Of a DNA stretch of 64,000 nucleotides, positions 4,906-48,959 are shown piece by piece. Source of the DNA: Papaver somniferum. Lineage: Eukaryota; Streptophyta; Magnoliopsida; Ranunculales; Papaveraceae. Position numbers and translations under genes: made by a program. Position 1 is the first letter of the stretch; each line of letters opens with the position of its first letter. The stretch spans positions 160,224,542 through 160,288,541 of the forward strand of contig NC_039367.1 in assembly GCF_003573695.1 (NCBI RefSeq). Reading direction: 5' to 3'. The notes under the pieces were generated by a model, which had not been told where the DNA came from, ran no database searches, and saw only the letters and a program-made list of their open reading frames with translations.

Positions 4906-5332
4906 CTATAGTGAAAATCTTCCAACGTCCTCTTTTTTTCCTTTTTTCCTATACGTCCTTTTTTGTTTGGGGATTCTGCACCCCTGTGAAGACTGGTGCG
5001 TGGTATCGGGAGTGCAATTACTATCTATCACTACAGGCTGTAAAGTTAACATGCTCACATTTTACACTAAAACAAATTGAAGATGCAATGTTACGGCAAT
5101 GATCTATTATAGAGGACGACTTAGTCATTTCAACCAACGCATGTACATCTTAATTTTACGCAGAATTAATCTAAATCAGAGTTTAGTGAGAATTTCTCAG
5201 TTGATTAGTAACCAAACAATCAAAATAGCAGCCTTGAAAAAGGTTAACAAAAGGCATATCCATATATATAAGATAGATATATCTTTAATTTGCAGTATCA
5301 AAACAGACTAGCATTGCATAAGCATTAAGTAC

Positions 5333-6479
5333 TTAGTTAAGAGAAAATGAACGAACCATATCTTTCGGTGCTATTATTAATCTTCCAGTTGTACGAGAAT
5401 CTAATATCAGGTTTCTATATGTTTTGCTTTTTGGGTCATATAAAACAAAACCTTGATCGACCTTCCATAGAATTTCACTGTTCCTGAAACTGCATATTAA
5501 ATCCACCTTTGCGCTGCTAGTTATACTCTCTTGGGTAATGGAGTAACTTTTAGTCCAAGATTCTCTCACTCCATAGCTTAGCATCTTCCATAGATCAACC
5601 CGGACATAAAAAACATGAAAAATTAAACCTAGGCAACCTCCAAATACTTTCACATGTATCTTGAACATATTTCTTTCCAAAGGTTCTTCTGGATATGGCA
5701 TAGGAACTTCAGGAAGTGCTACCTCCTCGAATATCTCCTTTGCAGTATCAAAATAGACCAGCACAGTACAGCGTTCTCCAGATGTACGCGCAAACCAATG
5801 AAGAGCTCCATTAAACAACACTCCTTGACACCAGGTTTTGCAGTAAAGACGGTACGGTATGCTTTTACTGTGTTTTCATGAATTAGATCCTAATGTATAG
5901 AGATCAACATCAGAACACTTTGAAGGCCTGTTGTAAACAACCCATACCAATTTGTAATCGTTGGTCTTGTAATCATAACCAAATCCATAGCCATTAATGT
6001 CATAATCGTTTACTTCTGGTGCCATGGGTATGTTTTCGACCTGTTTGGTAGACAGATTCCAAATATAAAATCATTTGCAACTACTTTTACTACAACGTAC
6101 GTATCCAAATCAATCCATTACATGAAGACAAAACCTTAAGCGAATCAAAATTTAGAAATATAGAAGGTCGATCCATCCGGTTTAAAAATTCATCCCATGA
6201 TACGCATTCGCACGTTGTTGTTGATGAGGTGGACAATGGCAATAAAGATGATAATGACTTATAATCAATCGTATACTTTTTGTTTTGTTTAGCCACTTGA
6301 AACACAATTCTAGTACCGTTTTTTATGTTACTAAGCTCCTGATGCATATTTTGAAAACCTTGGGTATGAAATAAGGTACACAAAGACCTACTCACGCACT
6401 TGAATCGCAAAAGAGACTTCTCTGGCAGCCTTTACTGTGTTTCTAGGAGAATCTCTCAAGGGAGGTTAAGGTTTGACAT
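5333..6479 (-). pseudogene. F-box protein with F-box-associated (FBA) domain, pseudogene copy 1
   Basis: From the start at 6477-6479 the frame reads the beginning of an F-box, but stop codons fall inside it at 6456-6458 and 6432-6434. It resumes with RFKCVSRSLCTL, then an FBA-type region. A frameshift lies near 6090. TGA replaces the expected tryptophan codon at 5876-5878 (GSNS-stop-KHS). The last 162-codon block (5333-5821) stays open and carries the FBA landmarks PYPEEPLER, FGGCLGLI, GVRESWTK and VLYDPKSKT. Intact relatives are substrate receptors of SCF ubiquitin ligases. It is clearly paralogous to 48385-51464. The intact version would be close to 380 residues. At least three nonsense changes and a frameshift make function unlikely. 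Confidence 0.88.
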
Positions 6480-15896: not shown

Positions 15897-16258
15897 TTAA
15901 GACTTGGACTATACATGGACTGGCGTTGCAGCTGTGCAGTCACAGCTCCCTAGACTATATACACGTCTAATTCCCCCCCCCCCNNNNNNNNNNNNNNNNN
16001 NNNNNNNNNNNNNNNNNNNNNNNNNNNNNNNNNNNNNNNNNNNNNNNNNNNNNNNNNNNNNNNNNNNNNNNNNNNNNNNCCCCCCCCCCCCCCAAGTTGG
16101 AGGCTAAGGACCATCTGCACGAAGATCCAAATTGCTAGCAAGTTGGCGAAAATGATCCACTCCCAGCGGTTTCGTGAAAAGATCAGCTAATTGTAATGTT
16201 GATGACATATAAGTAGGCTTGATTAAACCAGAAAGTAGTTTGTCACGTACGTAAGATT
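15897..16258 (-). mobile_element. Copia retrotransposon, 3' fragment (RNase H end, polypurine tract, start of 3' LTR)
   Basis: On the minus strand 16258 down to 16095 reads LLSGLIKPTYMSSTLQLADL, FTKPLGVDHFRQL and a stop. This is the C-terminal end of Copia RNase H with its hallmark ADLFTKPLG. It is followed by CCAACTTGGGGGG, a polypurine tract, an assembly gap, and then the first 75 bp of an LTR matching 12791 onward. Beyond that the LTR is cut off. It lies in opposite orientation to the gag half at 12791-14309. Confidence 0.82.
15984..16079. other. Assembly gap (96 N) inside a homopolymer C tract
   Basis: Eleven C (15973-15983) and fourteen C (16080-16093) border the N run. On the minus strand this is the G-rich polypurine tract of the Copia fragment. 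The gap is therefore probably a sequencing stall, and its true length is unknown. Confidence 0.95.
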
Positions 16259-27238: not shown

Positions 27239-29188
27239 TCAGAAACTTGTGTTTTGGGCCGGCAAGGCATAATCTGATAACTCGGAGCGTGAAGAGTCAG
27301 TTGAGCGATTATTAGCATCGCCTCTATGGACGAAAGTTGCAGAAGTTCTCCCCTTTGTCTTAACATCTTCGATCATCTTGTGCACAACACTCGCATTATG
27401 CCGATCATTAGGAACTTGAGCTACACATAGCAAAGCAATTTGAAGAAGACACACCATTTCACCCACAATAACTTTATCTCTTGGAAGTTCAAAATCAAAC
27501 ACTTCTGACTCCCATTCTTCTTTTCCAACACACTGCACCCACTTAGCCAAACTCGTTTCACCTTCATATACGGCCATCTTGCCGGTCAAAATCTCCAGTA
27601 GAATCACCCCTAAGCTATAAACATCACATTTCTGCGAAAGCTTCCTGTAATTATGTGCATTATACATCAACTCCGGTGCCTTATATCCATTGTTCGTCAC
27701 ATTTGCCGGTGCGACAAAAATGTGACATAAAGCCGCATCGGCAATACATGCATTGTTTTCCCGATCGATAACCACATTCGCTGAAGTTAAATTCCCATGA
27801 GAAAGCTTACGGTCATTTGCTACATGGAGAAAGGCCAACCCTTCTGCAACACCAGACGCGAACTTCAACCTTGTTCCCCAATCTAATGGAGTTCTACCAG
27901 GTCCTCGATTACCATGTAACAAAGAAAACAAGCTTCCATTAGAGAAGTAATCATAAACTAACAACAATTCTCCTTTAGACGAGTAATACCCTCGCAAACT
28001 CGATAAATTCTTATGTCTTAATTCACCAATTTCTTTCAAAAATCCATTAATTTCTTTCTTCTTTCTTTCTCTAATTCTCTTCACAACTACTGAATATCCA
28101 TTATTCATCATAACTTTGTATGTAGTACCGAAACTACCTTTCCCTAATAATTCAGCTGAAGATTTCAGTAAATCATCAACACTTAAATCCAAACACCCGT
28201 TAAACAAAACCATCATTCCTTCTTCTTCTTTCCCTTCAAACCCAGAACTCCTTTTCTTCTTCTCAATACTCTGTTTGCCATTGCTCTGTTTCTTACTAAA
28301 TTTCTTCATGCAGAGAAGAAATCCCAGGAAACCCATTAAAATTATTAAACCAACATATGAAATTGTGATCAAAATAAGAGCTTTCTTACTCAATTTCTTA
28401 GCTTTTTTGGGTTTTGGTGGAACCAAAACTGGAATTGGATCAATCTGACCTCCACTCTGACTTTCTCCACCACAATCATTCAACAATGGTTCTCCACAAA
28501 GATTCTTGTTTCCTACAAATGAAGAATCTTGAAAAGACCTTAAAATCTCCGGAATTTCACCTTCCAGATCGTTTCTTGAAACATTGAATTCAATCAGACT
28601 CGAAAAACTCCCAATCCCTTTTAAGGAACCAGTGAATGAATTCATTTCTAACCGAATCGTGAGTAAATTCGGTAATTGAATGAGTTCTCCCAAAGGGATT
28701 TCACCAGTGAATTGATTATAAGAAAGATCAATTCTATGTAACCGATGGAGTTCTGAAATTCCGGAAGGAAACTTCCGGGAAAATTTATTATGAGAAAGGT
28801 AAAGAAGTTTCATATTTCTCCATGGAGAAAATGAGAAATCTTTAGAAATTGAAAGATTATTATACTTAAGACTCAGTTGTCTCAGTTCCGTTAACTGAGA
28901 CAGAACTTCAATTGAACCAGTAAGATTTTGATTTTCAAGAACCAATTGAGTAATTCTGGTTCTTTCATGGTTACAAGTAACTCCAATCCAAGAACAAAGG
29001 GATGAAGATGAAGAAGAAGAATTAGACCATGAAATCAAGGTTTTGTTGAATGGGTCTGAAGATTTCTTGAATTCTAATAAGGTTTCAAAGTCTGGGTTTG
29101 AGGAAGAAAGTGAGAAAAACAAGAAGAAGATGAGGACAGAGGCAGTGGAGTTGCAGAAGAGCTTCATTGTTTGTTTGGGTTCCCTCAC
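27239..29188 (-). CDS. LRR receptor-like pseudokinase (probable inactive receptor kinase, LRR-III type)
   Basis: A single uninterrupted exon of 649 codons. The second Met (29165-29167) directly precedes a hydrophobic signal peptide (residues about 8-30) and is the likelier start. An LRR N-terminal cap (CSWIGVTC, about 65-72) and some five or six LRRs run to about 225, followed by NLCGEPL. One membrane helix spans about 269-293, and the kinase-like domain about 340-610. The glycine loop is GKGSFG (349-354) and the VAIK lysine is K370 (VVVK). The catalytic loop is HGN (464-466) instead of HRD and the metal-binding DFG is DAA (484-486), so catalysis is not expected; APE is kept. Such proteins act as plasma-membrane co-receptors or scaffolds in growth or immunity. 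Length is normal for the family. A Copia LTR lies 105 bp past the stop. Confidence 0.95.
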   Translation of the reverse strand: MREPKQTMKLFCNSTASVLIFFLFFSLSSSNPDFETLLEFKKSSDPFNKTLISWSNSSSSSSSLCSWIGVTCNHERTRITQLVLENQNLTGSIEVLSQLTELRQLSLKYNNLSISKDFSFSPWRNMKLLYLSHNKFSRKFPSGISELHRLHRIDLSYNQFTGEIPLGELIQLPNLLTIRLEMNSFTGSLKGIGSFSSLIEFNVSRNDLEGEIPEILRSFQDSSFVGNKNLCGEPLLNDCGGESQSGGQIDPIPVLVPPKPKKAKKLSKKALILITISYVGLIILMGFLGFLLCMKKFSKKQSNGKQSIEKKKRSSGFEGKEEEGMMVLFNGCLDLSVDDLLKSSAELLGKGSFGTTYKVMMNNGYSVVVKRIRERKKKEINGFLKEIGELRHKNLSSLRGYYSSKGELLLVYDYFSNGSLFSLLHGNRGPGRTPLDWGTRLKFASGVAEGLAFLHVANDRKLSHGNLTSANVVIDRENNACIADAALCHIFVAPANVTNNGYKAPELMYNAHNYRKLSQKCDVYSLGVILLEILTGKMAVYEGETSLAKWVQCVGKEEWESEVFDFELPRDKVIVGEMVCLLQIALLCVAQVPNDRHNASVVHKMIEDVKTKGRTSATFVHRGDANNRSTDSSRSELSDYALPAQNTSF

Positions 29189-33120: not shown

Positions 33121-34031
33121 GTATTTTATACGTTTTAATTAAATTTGGACCTCCGTTAAATAAAATCTCGATTTGGTAGAAGTATGTTATTTCACACATA
33201 TTTAACCAGTAGGGTATATTAGTCATTTCCATGTTTTCAAAAAACTTTGGACCCTAGGATAAAAATAAAATCCGGTTGGACCCTACTATAAATAACCTTA
33301 TGGGCTTAGGACCAAACAAGAAATTTTCCTTCACATTTTGATATTTTTAGGCCCATAACTTTAGAATTCAGGGCCTGTAATTAAAAAATTTACTTCATGA
33401 TACCAAAACAACCCTTTAGTATATATAGTTATAAAATTAGGCGTAGATTTCATTTTTGGTTTCATTTTCTTTTTCAGTTTCTCACTCTAATTTTCTTTAG
33501 CTCTCTCTCTCGGATGAAGAACCAGTCCGAGAAACAATTCTTAATCGAAATTCTCAATGAAAAAATGATTTTGAAACCTAGATCTAAGATTTACAAACGA
33601 ATATCCTGATTATCCAAACAAAAATTCTACATCAACATCACTTTCTCTCTCTGGTTTTTGCTCTGAAGAGTATTAGGGTTTTCAGTTTCAGATCGTCAAC
33701 GTCGTAGTTTAACGGAGAAGAAGAAAACGAGTTTAGCTTCATCGATTTCAGATGACGATGCTTATGGATCTCTGTTGATGATTTCGATTGAATAGCTCAA
33801 TGAACTAATCGATTGAAATAAATAGATTTGATCTACGTCGATTAAATATGAATTTTTCAGTTGAGTCGAAGATATCTCAGGAATTGATTTAATTGATTTT
33901 TGTTCAATGGATTTATAGATCTGAATGATTTGGTTCAAATTTATTTAACAACTGATCATCAATCTTCGAATTCTCAATTGATTCTAGTTTGTTGTTTCAA
34001 AGCTACTCCATGTTAGGTTTTCTGATTTGAA

Positions 34032-34501
34032 TGTAGTTGCAGGAAATCCTACACTACACCCCTCATATGATTTCATTCACATTCAACTCATTTTAGATTA
34101 ACAATATTAATTTTATTGATGAATCTTTGAACAATCTTATAGGAAAAGATATAGGAATTGAGAATAACCACTGCTCTAGATTTTCTCTCTCTTATTTACT
34201 TGTTTCTTACTCAAAAAATGATCTCCCCTTTCCTTTGCAACTGAACGACTATTTATAGGGAAATACATAGTGGATGACAGCTAATCTGTCGTTTATTTTC
34301 GGATATGGCTTGCGACATTCTCGCAACCTTACAAATGTTAATCTCGCAAACTCTCTAATTTACGCAGGACTATCACATCTTTCTCATGATTTTAGTTGAC
34401 ATCGTTTATTATATCATTTCTGAAATTGTTCTGCGACGCTGTTGTGTTGTGTTGTTGATAATTTCGCTGAGACATTATTGCTGCGAAATTATGATCCTAC
34501 A
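34032..34501 (-). repeat. LTR of the inverted-LTR element, left copy (minus)
   Basis: 470 bp; on the minus strand TGTAGGATCATAAT...GCAACTACA. Its CTATAAATAG promoter box points leftward, out of the element. Confidence 0.9.
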
Positions 34502-35920
34502 TCTGATAAAGTTTCCATCCCTAAATTAGCTTTAGTTAAAGAATAAGAAAGGAGAGATATTTCATTACTTAATAAATCTTGCCTCTGAACTAATTGGGTA
34601 TTTTTATTGGTAAGATTATTTATATGATCAACAGAATATGAATAGAGGTTATCTAATTGGTTATATTGATCCATCAAAATCTCTTTATCAACACGGGATT
34701 CTTCAACAACAGATTCAAATTGATATCTCTCCATTATTCGTTTCTGGTTTAAGGTTTAACATGTGAAAGAGGTATTTCAAGGATAATTAAATATGGGAAA
34801 GATAAAATCATTAGAAAGGCAAATTAAAGACACAGATAAGGAAATCATACCTCTCAGTTCATCATTCTTCTTGCGAAGGTTGTCACGATCCAGCAAAACA
34901 TTCTGAAGCTTTTGATTTTCGAGACGAAGAGCATTACACTCTTTTTTCAAAGTTGTTTGCGAAGCAGCTCTGTCAGAACCGAAATACTTACTCAGAATTT
35001 CTCAAATACCAGACTTGACAGGATCAATGAGAGACTTTTTTCCATCATCCAAGACTTCAGACAAAACTTTGAAAGCAATATTTATTCCTTCCACAGTTTC
35101 TTTCGAAAAGGGAAGAGGCTCAGGTAGAGAACTGGCAATGATAGAAGGTTGAGAAACATTATCAATAGGAAGAGAAGAAGTTTCATTCACAGAAGGATCA
35201 ATAATGGGGGTTTCAATCATTGAAAGGTCAGTTGAAGAAATGAAGCTTGAGGCATCTTTTTCGCGAATTGGAGATAATGGTTTAACTTGCGAAGATGTCG
35301 CAGGAGATTTAGAAGAGATAAGTAAGTGGAATGGACAGAGGTTTTAACAATTTTAAGGTGGCCAGATTTCTTGAGAGGTTTATTGACATCCTTATCACCC
35401 TGCGAATTACAATCCAGATAAGAAACAGAGGCAACAATATTGTTATTAGAAAAGAATAGTGTCTCTTACTACCTTCTGATTCGCAGCCTTTCTCTTGTGT
35501 ACAACAATCTTATGCTGCGGTTTGGGATTATTAGGGTTCTGAACCATAAATTTAGTGTTGGAGGCGCTTTTGATGAAATAACAACAGTATGGGAATCACA
35601 TAAACATCATCAAATAAGGCAGTAAGCAAGATCAATTTCAGCAAAACCCATAAGGAAGAAAAAAGAAAACTAACCTTGATGAATCCATGAAAAACACTAG
35701 CAAGAATATTATTTCGTAGAAAAGTACGAATGATGAAGATCTACAGAGGGAACAGTATGGAGACGAAGAAGAACTTAAAAAGATTGAAAGAAGAAGAAAG
35801 AAGAAAAGTTGCAATAACGAAATTTGCAGAAGAATGATGAAGTTGTAGAGAAAATAAAAAGAGAGAAAAAGAGAGTGAGAAAGAGTATATATAGAGGAAA
35901 TTTTTTGTCGAGAAGATAAA
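34489..35920 (-). pseudogene. Multi-exon coiled-coil protein remnant inside the inverted-LTR element
   Basis: On the minus strand a CTATATATACTC box (about 35890) and a CT-rich leader precede MDSSR at a GTTAGT donor (about 35680). A block near 35560-35475 reads KFMVQNPNNPKPQHKIVVHK. One at 35399-34851 reads SLPIDNVSQPSIIAS, TVEGINIAFKVLSEVLDDG, a TGA, then ALRLENQKLQNVLLDRDNLR with a GTATG donor. The last block (34734-34489) is a coiled coil (MERYQFESVVEESRVDKEIL). The coils recall the C-terminal half of plant gypsy-type putative transposon proteins, but I do not recognise the protein. Its stop codon lies inside the left LTR. One internal stop and a splice-phase mismatch suggest decay. Confidence 0.5.
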
Positions 35921-36095
35921 CACGATTAATGCGGAAAGATGAAAGCGGTTAAAAAGCAGCAGTTACAAAAGACGTGTCAAGAACAAGATAGGAAAAAGGA
36001 TACGTGTGATAAATGCAGAATATCAAATGATGGATAACTGCTGCATTTCTCACATCATTCTCTACTTCGCAGAGAAGATATGAGAAGAGGCAAGA

Positions 36096-36565
36096 TGTAG
36101 GATCATAATCTCGCAGCAATAATGTCTCATAGAAATTATCAACAACACAACACAACAGCGTCGCGGAACAATTTCAGAAATGATATAATAAACGACGTCA
36201 GTTAAAATCATGAGAAAGATGTGATAGTCCTGCGAAAATTAGAGAGTTTGCGAGATTAACATTTGTAAGGTTGCGAGAATGTCGCAAGCCATATCCGAAA
36301 ATAAAGGACAGATTAGCGGTTATCCACTATGTATTTCCCTATAAATAGTCGTTCAGTTGCAAAGGAAAGGGGAGATCATTTTTTGAGTAAGAAACAAGTA
36401 AATAGGAGAGAGAAAATCTAGAGCAGTGGTTATTCTCAATTCCTATATCTTTTCTTGTAAGATTGTTCAAAGATTCATCAATAAAATTAAGGTTGTTAAT
36501 CTAAAATAAGTCTAATATTAATGAAATCATATGAGGGGTGTAGTGTAGGATTTCCTGCAACTACA
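36096..36565 (+). repeat. LTR of the inverted-LTR element, right copy (plus)
   Basis: 470 bp. CTATAAATAGTCG at about 36340 gives an outward promoter, and AATAAAATTAAGG near 36481 a polyadenylation-type signal. The left copy has the same structure in mirror image. Confidence 0.9.
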
Positions 36566-37289
36566 TTGAAGTTGTTGTTGTTTCTTTTGATTTCTGAGAT
36601 CAAGAAGAATCATCACTGTTTCAGAAGAATAGCAACAGAATCAAGGTACGATTTGTTTTTTAGTTTTTGTTGTTGTTGTTAGTAATTATTCTCGATCCGA
36701 TTTTAGTTTCATTCTCGATTTCAATTTTGATTTAGTTTTATCACAATCTAAATCAGGTATGTATAACTGGAGGACTAGCAGTACCTAATCACATGACATG
36801 CTATTCTGGTCTCGATGGTGCACTCAGTTTTATTATGTATAATTTTTCCTAACCTTTCAACTGTCTATGAGCTAATAGTAGTGGAGAATACAAATTTTTT
36901 ATCTCCTATGTTTAGTTAATACTGGACGTGGACTTGTAATGCTTTCAATTTGATATAAATATATGTGAAAATCATCGTTATTTTAGTTGCTAGAAGAAAC
37001 TACTTCGTGCATCGTTGATTTGCGTATAATATGTTTATATCTGTGATTCATATTCCTAAGAACTGCTGAACTTTAGCAACTGTTGAACAATGCTTGTCAG
37101 ACGCAGGCTTAGAAATGTTATTTAAGCAATTGTGAAAAGATGTGTAATGTTATTTAAGAAATGTTTTTGTTTCATTGAAAGATTTAGGAAAGAGGTCTGA
37201 AATAAAGAAGAAAGTGATATGAAGACACCGATTGGTAAGTTTGATGGAGCAACTGCACAAACAACATAATACGTTGTTCTGTGATCATG

Positions 37290-39862: not shown

Positions 39863-39971
39863 AAATAAACAGTGGTTTCATATGATCGTCCCTCTTACAT
39901 ATAGGTGGGCCATGAGATTGGGTGGGTTTGAGTCTCATTTGTATGTGAGAGGGCGATTTGTTTTACGGAAA

Positions 39972-40275
39972 ACGGGTCATTTGTCCAAATATTTTTAAAA
40001 CATGGTTCTAATGGACGAGTAAAAATTAGTATGGGTGAAATGGACACAAAAAAAATAGTAAGGATGAAACTGGATTCATCCTGGCTTAAACTTAAAAAAT
40101 AGCGAGGATGAAACTGGATGCATCCTGATGTAAATTAAAAATAAATAGTATTTGAAAACGGGTAAGATGAAACTGTTTACATCCTGGATATTTTTAAATA
40201 TTTGTCAATTTAAACAATATCAAAATCTAGATGTCTTTTTCACCCAGAAATTGTTGATTTTGATTTTTTTAACCA
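39972..40275 (-). repeat. Dispersed repeat, copy 2 (inverted partner of 2405-2720)
   Basis: It reads ACGGGTCATTTGTCCAAAT at its left end and contains GGATGAAACTGGATTCATCC and GGATGAAACTGGATGCATCC. It is the reverse complement of the segment near position 2400-2720. Confidence 0.75.
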
Positions 40276-40783: not shown

Positions 40784-41261
40784 TTAGTTTTTGATGCACG
40801 TCTCATCGCAGGAGCTTATACAACGATCAACTTCGTCCACACCTGAAGAATAAAAAGATAATCACTTGATAAAAGGATTAAATTTGAAAATCGTATGTAC
40901 GCAAAAAGAAAAGGGAAAAAAGATGAACAAACGTACGAGGGTCCGTTGGGGTGCTTTTGTCAACGCACTTGGAATAAGCGCATCCAAGTACACAATACTT
41001 ATGCTTAGTAGTATCTTCGTTTGAGACGACAGCCTTAGGGATATCAGCAGTAGCGATTTGCTCACCATTGCTTGCACATTTTAATTTACATACTCCTTGA
41101 CATTGTTTAAATTTTGGAGGTAATGTACACTTAGTCAGGCATTTTGAATAACATGTTTGTGCCGATGCCGGTTGTGCTGAAATTTGCACTACGAACATTC
41201 CCCAAATTAACACTACTCCGAACAACATAACTCCTGAAACGATATTCCCCTTAACTTCCAT
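40784..41261 (-). CDS. Secreted cysteine-rich thionin-like peptide (two exons)
   Basis: Exon 1 runs 41261-40937 and ends at a GTACGT donor (40936-40931). Exon 2 runs 40842-40784 after a TTCTTCAG acceptor. Joined, they give 127 codons in frame, with the splice falling inside an Arg codon. The N-terminus has a hydrophobic secretion signal (residues about 8-34). The mature part has paired cysteines in CYSKCLTKC, CQGVCKLKC and CVLGCAYSKC, with three more in exon 2 (CISSC, ETC). This pattern and length fit the plant thionin-like (proteinase-inhibitor I9-unrelated) secreted peptides, presumed to act in defence or reproduction outside the cell. A CTATAAATC box lies about 90 bp upstream. Family assignment is by cysteine pattern only; function is not proven. 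No break is seen. Confidence 0.82.
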
Positions 41262-41345
41262 CTTTCTCGAGTTGGCAAACGGAAATCAGAGTTGCAATGC
41301 TGTTGGTAGTTTGGAGGTAAATGAAAGAAAATTTTGCAAATGAAG

Positions 41346-48158: not shown

Positions 48159-48959
48159 ATTCCCAAATGGGTAACTGCGAAAGTATTGTAGCTTTGAATG
48201 GGGTTATAAGAGAGAGTTCAGTACGCTTTAAAGTTGCAGTAAGAGACATCCATTCCCCCGAAGCTTATAAGAAAAATGGAATCAGATTAATTCATGTCTG
48301 ACAAGCGCGAACTAGTTTGTGCCCGCATACTAAACAACAGTTCCGTTCCCTTCACTTCGCCGCCCTCTTGAGTTACTGAGTACCTTAGCTAAGTGAAATT
48401 GGACTAACCATATCATCGTGTTCTATGACTGTCCTTCCAGTTATATGTGAATCCAACATCAGTTTTCTATGGCTTTTGTTCTTCGGGTCGTATAAAACAA
48501 AACCTTGATCGACCATCCATAAAATTTCATTATTCCTGAAACTCCAGATTAACTCCACCTTCGTGCTACTAGTTAAATCTTCTTCTGCGATGGAAAAACT
48601 TTTAGTCCAAGAATCTCTCACTCCATATTCTTGCCTCATCCATACATCAATCCGGACATTACAAGTCAAAAAATTAAACATAAGCACCCTCCAAGTACTT
48701 TCACATTTAGCCTGGATATATGTCTTTCCAGAGGTTCTTCTGGATATGGCGTAGGGACTGCTGGGAGTGTTACCTCCCCAAATCTCTCATTCACAATATC
48801 AAAACTGACTAGCATAGTGGAGCCTTCTCCAAAGGCACAAGCAAGCCAATGAAAGGCTCCATTAAGAAGCACTCCTTGAACAGGAGGGGGTTTATTATAA
48901 AATCCACGATATGGTATACTTTGACTTCCTTTCCATGAACCTCATCCTAATGTATAGAC

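Follow-up and report, generated by a model that had tools for sequence, protein, structure and literature searches.

How can a retrotransposon insertion carry two long terminal repeats (LTRs) that point in opposite directions and be flanked by one matched target duplication? This question is raised by a small unit in Papaver somniferum, located in a stretch of 64,000 nucleotides of contig NC_039367.1 (positions 160,224,542 to 160,288,541, forward strand), the whole of which is called the window here. The unit occupies 34027-36570, and the window sits on C10 of the 2.715-Gb assembly; all positions are window coordinates unless prefixed by a contig, and C10 denotes the window's chromosome. An initial annotation had proposed either that an aberrant complementary DNA (cDNA) product was integrated here or that integrase moves a whole family of such units as elements with long terminal inverted repeats (TIRs). 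The analysis indicates, with a probability of roughly two in three, that the unit is a single aberrant reverse-transcription product of a Ty3/gypsy family, inserted by the family's own integrase. This explanation builds on the observed anatomy of the unit, its inner junction with shared bases, the empty insertion site, the single genomic locus and the parent family.

Structure of the inverted-LTR unit

The unit begins and ends with copies of TTGAA, at 34027-34031 and 36566-36570. Inside them lie two LTRs of 470 bp, each with TG...CA ends: a left LTR on the minus strand (34032-34501), with its U5 tip outside and its U3 tip inside, and a right LTR on the plus strand (36096-36565), again with the U3 tip inside and the U5 tip outside. 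The initial annotation had placed these features exactly to the base. The two arms align without gaps at 95.5% identity, with 21 differences (13 transitions and 8 transversions; Kimura two-parameter distance 0.046), and their inverted identity continues for 3 bp (AGA) inward of each U3 tip. Substitution rates of 1.3e-8 and 7e-9 come from other plants, and at these borrowed rates the arm divergence would mean roughly 1.8-3.3 million years.

The sense of the LTRs can be read from their signals. The motif TATAAATA lies at 36340-36347 on the plus strand of the right LTR, with a mirror copy in the left LTR at 34250-34257. Together with AATAAA, present in three places including the likely poly(A) signal of the right LTR at 36480-36485 on the plus strand, it occurs in the outward-reading direction only. 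A polypurine tract (PPT) with 22 purines in 25 bases adjoins the right LTR at 36071-36095 on the plus strand, a richness reached by only 0.28% of 25-nt stretches in the window. Similar sequence stands at this position in other family copies, and in the unit the tract precedes the right U3 tip only, not the left. Because TATAAATA and AATAAA are one-directional and the PPT precedes the right LTR, the LTR sense is fixed; therefore each LTR has its U5 tip at the outer end and its U3 tip toward the interior. Regular Ty3/gypsy members have direct LTRs, and the arms of this unit are inverted. Inspection by eye of the sequence and its six-frame translation revealed no gag-pol-like frame in the interior, as had been stated before, and neither a sequence of primer-binding-site (PBS) type nor a pol-like frame anywhere in the unit.

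The parent Ty3/gypsy family

Genome searches connect the arms to a very numerous family. A 31-nt U5-tip pattern, allowing at most one mismatch, gave 9,976 matches in the genome (4,965 forward and 5,011 reverse) and none for the control. An LTR query, for which the best 40 of 2,028 candidates were scored, returned the two window arms, three places on the small contigs C8332, C3478 and C5213, 14 places forming seven same-strand pairs within 21 kb, and 21 places partnerless in that list. When nine of these 21 were followed for about 9.9 kb each way, eight had a same-strand partner at 4.0-8.7 kb, one had none, and none had an inverted one. The first 100 U5-tip places listed, all on C1, contain 29 neighbouring pairs less than 12.5 kb apart, of which 26 are same-strand (18 of them spaced 8.37-8.69 kb), two are convergent and one has its U5 tips outward. 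This last pair, judged from list positions only, is 11.6 kb wide and stands between two same-strand pairs; its appearance is that of two elements lying side by side.

In ordinary copies the LTRs are direct and mostly spaced about 8.6 kb, and an intron-containing gene in antisense orientation precedes the 3' LTR. Two of them, about 9.1 kb long, have direct LTRs and target duplications AGAGT and ATATT, and in both the 5' LTR is followed by TAATGGCGCTAGAAACAGGG, taken as the PBS by its position. The open reading frames (ORFs) of pol in a single C3 copy (L011) match RVT_1 (1.5e-28), RT_RNaseH_2 (6.9e-18) and Integrase_H2C2 (1.3e-9). The order in this copy is pol (L011), antisense gene (L009), then PPT and 3' LTR (L006), and the antisense gene region adjoins the 3' LTR in eight further copies, pol having been scanned in the C3 copy only. 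The TG...CA ends and 5-bp duplications typical of Ty3/gypsy are shared by the unit (TTGAA) and the ordinary copies (AGAGT, ATATT). Taken together, these sequence comparisons indicate that the unit derives from this abundant Ty3/gypsy family. Pattern and protein scans of IMG/VR found no copies.

A DIRS-type element was also considered. Such elements have inverted LTRs, use a tyrosine recombinase and are not known to produce a target duplication. The candidate was rejected, given the 5-bp duplication at this locus and the integrase zinc-binding domain in the parent copy.

Several other arrangements were observed within the family. At C10:108024064-108037500 (L034, L035), a direct-LTR element with target duplication TTATT (by eye) lies nested within an older LTR of the same family in reverse orientation, and its edges mimic an inverted-LTR pair. 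Shorter direct-LTR copies of 4.5 and 5.5 kb, at C31626:2480437-2484910 (L017) and C9:89110314-89115792 (L019), appear to have arisen from the roughly 9-kb family by internal deletion.

Insertion site and empty sites

The right flank of the unit belongs to a dispersed repeat, which was found at the window locus, in a duplicate contig and at 38 further places among the best 40 of 90 candidates. All six host-repeat copies that were fetched show the two flanks joined directly, with ...TTTTCTGATTTGAA running straight into GTTGTT... and a single TTGAA. These empty-site copies are 96.6-97.6% identical over about 780 bases, and a chance match of two 5-mers has a frequency of 0.0016 in the window. Because all six copies are empty and hold one TTGAA, the unit arrived as one insertion, in one piece, duplicating TTGAA. 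The matched target duplication noted earlier is therefore genuine: the empty sites dispose of a chance flank match and argue strongly against any rearrangement involving the flanks.

In 34 of the 38 further places, the flank (window 33431-36900 without the unit) matches in two parts. Copies other than the window's carry 228-243 bases that are absent from the window copy, as worked out for four rows.

The empty sites also bear on a different history, in which a normal element landed at TTGAA and was rearranged later through inversion, nested insertion with recombination, or replication fold-back. The parent family does provide an opposite-orientation nested insertion, at C10:108024151-108037269. 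However, recombination between inverted LTRs leaves the outward-facing LTR ends unchanged, and a fold-back would copy inverted flank beyond the LTR, whereas the flanks here are colinear with the empty site. With the further need to flip the 5' LTR to the base and to remove about 6.5 kb, such a history is very improbable.

The truncated antisense gene and the inner junction

The interior (34502-36095) corresponds to the 3' end of the parent family, with the start of the antisense gene, a TATA-like element and then the PPT. The antisense coiled-coil gene lies on the minus strand at 34502-35688 and represents the 5' part of the family's gene, cut short by the left LTR. A putative TATA-like element, CTATATATACTC, is read from the letters alone upstream of it on the minus strand (35883-35894). 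Apparent introns were seen by eye at 35674-35567, 35472-35400 and 34850-34744, along with a premature stop at 35002-35004 and, by eye, a frame break upstream of that stop. The intron-containing gene reported in the initial annotation is thus present, but it is the parent family's own antisense gene in truncated form. Relatives of its protein are P0001-P0009, with two named Papaver somniferum proteins, one of them 'cytotardin-like'; a Pfam search with pieces of the antisense protein gave weak matches only, none above the cut-off.

Comparison with intact copies defines the breakpoint on the gene side. At the protein level, all five relatives that reach it (P0002, P0003, P0005, P0008 and P0009) continue from SDENK onward, and at the DNA level the breakpoint is contained in the fetched DNA of 18 other copies, all of which read through it, 17 of them keeping AGATG there. 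The short copy on C31626 is without the gene part around the breakpoint. On the LTR side, the left breakpoint falls exactly at the LTR start, which is the PPT/U3 boundary. Plus-strand synthesis begins at this point, after the polypurine tract. The PPT/U3 boundary also reads AGATG, and the bases on either side differ, so exactly five bases are shared; they appear in the unit as CATCT at 34500-34504 (AGATG on the gene strand). Shared runs of at least five bases occur at 0.64% of 1,559 interior positions. The unit consists of the 3' end of the family, broken off within the antisense gene, with a reversed LTR attached exactly at the PPT/U3 boundary.

A PBS-like reading of TATCAGA at the junction was rejected, since the same letters are gene sequence in other copies.

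A precise U3 tip joined to interior sequence brings autointegration to mind, in which the U3 end of a cDNA attacks its own interior and a product then integrates. The left junction fits this idea, as a U3 tip (CA) is joined to the interior in inverted orientation, as in strand transfer. However, autointegration consumes the ends and leaves the U5 of the left LTR at the PBS, whereas U5 here lies directly against the target, with TTGAA. The AGATG match is not predicted by such a mechanism, which would also require an extra precise cut at the U5/PBS boundary and is an improbable source. Of the initial proposal that an aberrant cDNA product integrated, the general part is supported, the best reading being that such a product went in with a true target duplication rather than being inverted afterwards; the simple autointegration version is not supported, given that the left U5 abuts target DNA.

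A single locus in the genome

The junction also shows how often the unit occurs. A 24-nt junction pattern, allowing at most two mismatches, has two matches in 2.7 Gb, in the window and in contig C8332, and none for the control. Likewise, a 149-nt junction query was covered at full length in two of the best 40 places (among 1,411 candidates), again the window and C8332. Among the other places in that best 40, 37 begin at junction-query base 29 and one at base 19, and the base-19 place also reads on as ordinary copies do.

These results address the proposal that integrase mobilises a non-autonomous family whose members end in long inverted repeats. Anatomy alone would permit it, since the unit has long inverted ends and a 5-bp duplication. 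However, the junction pattern occurs genome-wide at this locus only. The unit is not a family, because the junction has two genome matches and both are this locus; a mobile family built on it is refuted. The initial annotation had itself named a lone inverted locus as the outcome that would undo the idea. As far as sampled, only this locus is inverted, none of the nine followed LTR places being so, and the family claim falls. The sampling for other inverted units covered a small part of about 10,000 LTR tips, and inverted units with other breakpoints may exist elsewhere in the genome.

A long-TIR DNA transposon (Ginger-like) and a Pack-MULE were rejected as well. MULEs generate a 9-bp target duplication; the unit has a 5-bp duplication, TATA and poly(A) signals, a parent family and a single-locus junction.

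Support from duplicate contigs

Two unplaced contigs repeat the locus. C8332 follows the window from 35626 to 33531 with four mismatches and holds by itself the left flank, the reversed LTR and the junction, while C3478 repeats the locus from 35628 onward with no mismatch over the 1,943 bases compared. Each half of the unit structure therefore agrees with one contig, C8332 or C3478 respectively. Both contigs come from the same assembly and both stop at 35627, a position bridged by the chromosome alone, the comparison being one of assembled sequence alone. The only N run of the window is at 15984-16079.

This arrangement gives some room to a misassembly, in which two loci were joined in the interior near 35627: one half is found on each contig, and they break off at 35626 and 35628. 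However, both flanks are colinear pieces of one host repeat and meet at a single TTGAA in all six empty sites. C8332 alone has the left flank, the reversed LTR and the junction, and the C3 family copy is colinear across 35627. The odd left junction would persist even after a misjoin, and misassembly is accordingly a highly unlikely explanation of the locus.

A third small unplaced contig, C5213 (L003), equals window 34486-33531 and then diverges, at a position that is likewise the end of C8332. It may be an allele, a duplicate or an assembly artefact.

A proposed reverse-transcription mechanism

In LTR-element replication, a transfer RNA (tRNA) primes the minus strand, whose 5' end is accordingly the U5 tip; the plus strand is begun after the polypurine tract and accordingly has the U3 tip at its 5' end. 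In the favoured explanation, a minus-strand cDNA would start from the tRNA primer, at the U5 end, and copy the LTR and the polypurine tract, continuing through about 1.6 kb of the 3' region. It would then halt inside the antisense gene, with the 3' end ...ATCAGATG. Through AGATG, this stalled end could pair with the PPT/U3 boundary of a minus strand, replacing the polypurine primer that ends in ...AAGA. The partner might be the strand itself, in a snap-back, or a sister in the same particle, and the sequence fits both. Extension would run through U3-R-U5 up to the tRNA-defined U5 end, and the completed duplex would carry U5 ends on both sides. Finally, integrase would put both U5 ends into a copy of the dispersed repeat with the normal 5-bp stagger. 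Priming by a stalled strand would produce a truncated unit joined exactly at a U3 tip, with five shared bases at the join, U5 ends on both sides and LTRs that were alike at birth. The priming step, the snap-back or sister strand, the second-strand synthesis and the use of two U5 ends are inferred from these features.

The two arms were examined for signs of common origin with a private-allele test on an alignment of 25 LTRs. They share two alleles absent from the 23 other LTRs, while among 288 pairs from different elements 264 share no private allele, 24 share one and none shares two. Their 21 differences fall within the range of 8-35 seen in direct pairs. The shared private alleles thus fit, weakly, an origin of both arms from one parental molecule or one reverse-transcription event.

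Several points weigh against this reading. The allele test is weak, as only three of 11 direct pairs share at least two private alleles, while four share one and four share none. Once the rule is relaxed to alleles present in up to 15% of the other LTRs, the arms still share two, but eight of the 288 unrelated pairs share at least that many, and by raw distance each arm is nearer to some other LTRs than to its partner. The sequence does not explain how a hairpin or joint molecule became a full duplex, and the cDNA steps are inferred, no intermediate having been seen. In addition, microhomology end-joining could also give the five shared bases.

End-joining is the main rival. In this scenario, microhomology would link a truncated cDNA, representing the 3' end of the element, to the U3 tip of a free DNA made of an LTR only, and integration of the two-U5 product would follow. 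This route would account for the junction's five shared bases and for a break located at the U3 tip, which is a natural DNA end, and it leads to the same final sequence. However, it requires, besides a broken cDNA, a free duplex of LTR length whose U3 and U5 ends are mature, and the arms' shared private alleles weakly favour one parental molecule. End-joining deserves serious notice but is unlikely to be the origin, and aberrant reverse transcription by stalled-strand priming remains the preferred account.

Other features in the window

Outside the unit, the window contains a small ORF on the minus strand (40878-41285) for a cysteine-rich, secreted-looking product, thionin-like by eye. An intact-looking ORF of 649 codons on the minus strand (27239-29188) has leucine-rich repeats and a kinase-like part by eye. 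Additionally, 5328-5828 and 48379-48879 form a diverged direct repeat pair (80%) with an F-box-like ORF by eye, and 2407-2718 and 39965-40274 form an inverted pair of 310 bp (90%), perhaps copies of a small dispersed repeat.

Comparison with known systems and significance

Among the cases compared, the closest are the template-switching LTR complexes of Sabot and Schulman 2007 (PMC1950507), which result from abnormal template switching, are large, contain three LTRs and two interiors, and are not described as inverted. The unit resembles them in its probable origin by aberrant reverse transcription and in its single integration, 5-bp duplication and similar outer LTRs. It differs in its small size and in having only two LTRs, which are inverted so that a U5 tip stands at either end. 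Of the features that define such complexes, a single integration is found here, and outer LTRs from one cycle are weakly suggested by the arms' shared private alleles. The unit is regarded as a one-off aberrant LTR-element insertion, unusual but interpretable, and its inverted LTRs set it apart from template-switching complexes.

Retand, Grande and RIRE2 are known to carry antisense ORFs in this same place, downstream of pol and before the 3' LTR (PMC11963269; PMC7264820). Tat/Retand elements resemble the parent family in having pol followed by an antisense gene before the 3' LTR (seen in one copy), TG...CA ends and 5-bp duplications, and differ from the unit, which is without pol, PBS and direct LTRs. 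Placement of the parent family in Tat/Retand is a candidate assignment, made by the position of the antisense ORF and not by a reverse-transcriptase tree or by a TRP28 domain in the antisense protein, which also mark that lineage. A study of truncated EVD insertions and extrachromosomal circular DNA (eccDNA) in Arabidopsis epigenetic mutants (PMC10462705) reports EVD copies that are internally truncated and carry two LTRs, clear target duplications being present in two cases. These share the two LTRs with the unit, and the main text of that source is without 'inverted' or 'inversion'. In a triticale paper (PMC2151762), the matching phrase concerns only the orientation of primers for inter-retrotransposon amplified polymorphism (IRAP). 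Among the titles and abstracts of the matches listed, with most subscription journals outside, no inverted-LTR insertion with target duplication was recognised, which is a weak negative.

Two other systems offer instructive comparisons. Retroviral and Ty1 autointegration yields inverted LTRs through a U3 tip joined to the interior, in circles with used-up ends; the unit, in contrast, represents a linear product inserted by its U5 tips. Mu killer is a type of inverted duplication that silences a transposon family. Like Mu killer, the unit places long inverted copies of a transposon end at one locus and could, by analogy, give hairpin RNA, but it comes from an LTR element.

The unit provides a clean genomic record of an insertion with two U5 ends, supported by empty sites and with its breakpoint at the plus-strand origin. 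It also offers a searchable signature: a reversed LTR with its U3 tip inside, bases shared with the PPT end and a matched target duplication. To our knowledge, LTR finders that require direct repeats would miss inverted-LTR insertions. A tentative and rather doubtful extension is that two-U5 inverted-LTR cDNA, accepted by integrase, is a recurring by-product of plant Ty3/gypsy elements, which would be produced when synthesis at the plus-strand origin is primed by a stalled minus strand. One-off insertions of this type, with differing breakpoints, might then stand unrecognised in large plant genomes, some of them giving rise to hairpin RNA and thereby silencing the family they came from. The unit further suggests a way in which a single error might convert an LTR element into a natural hairpin locus.

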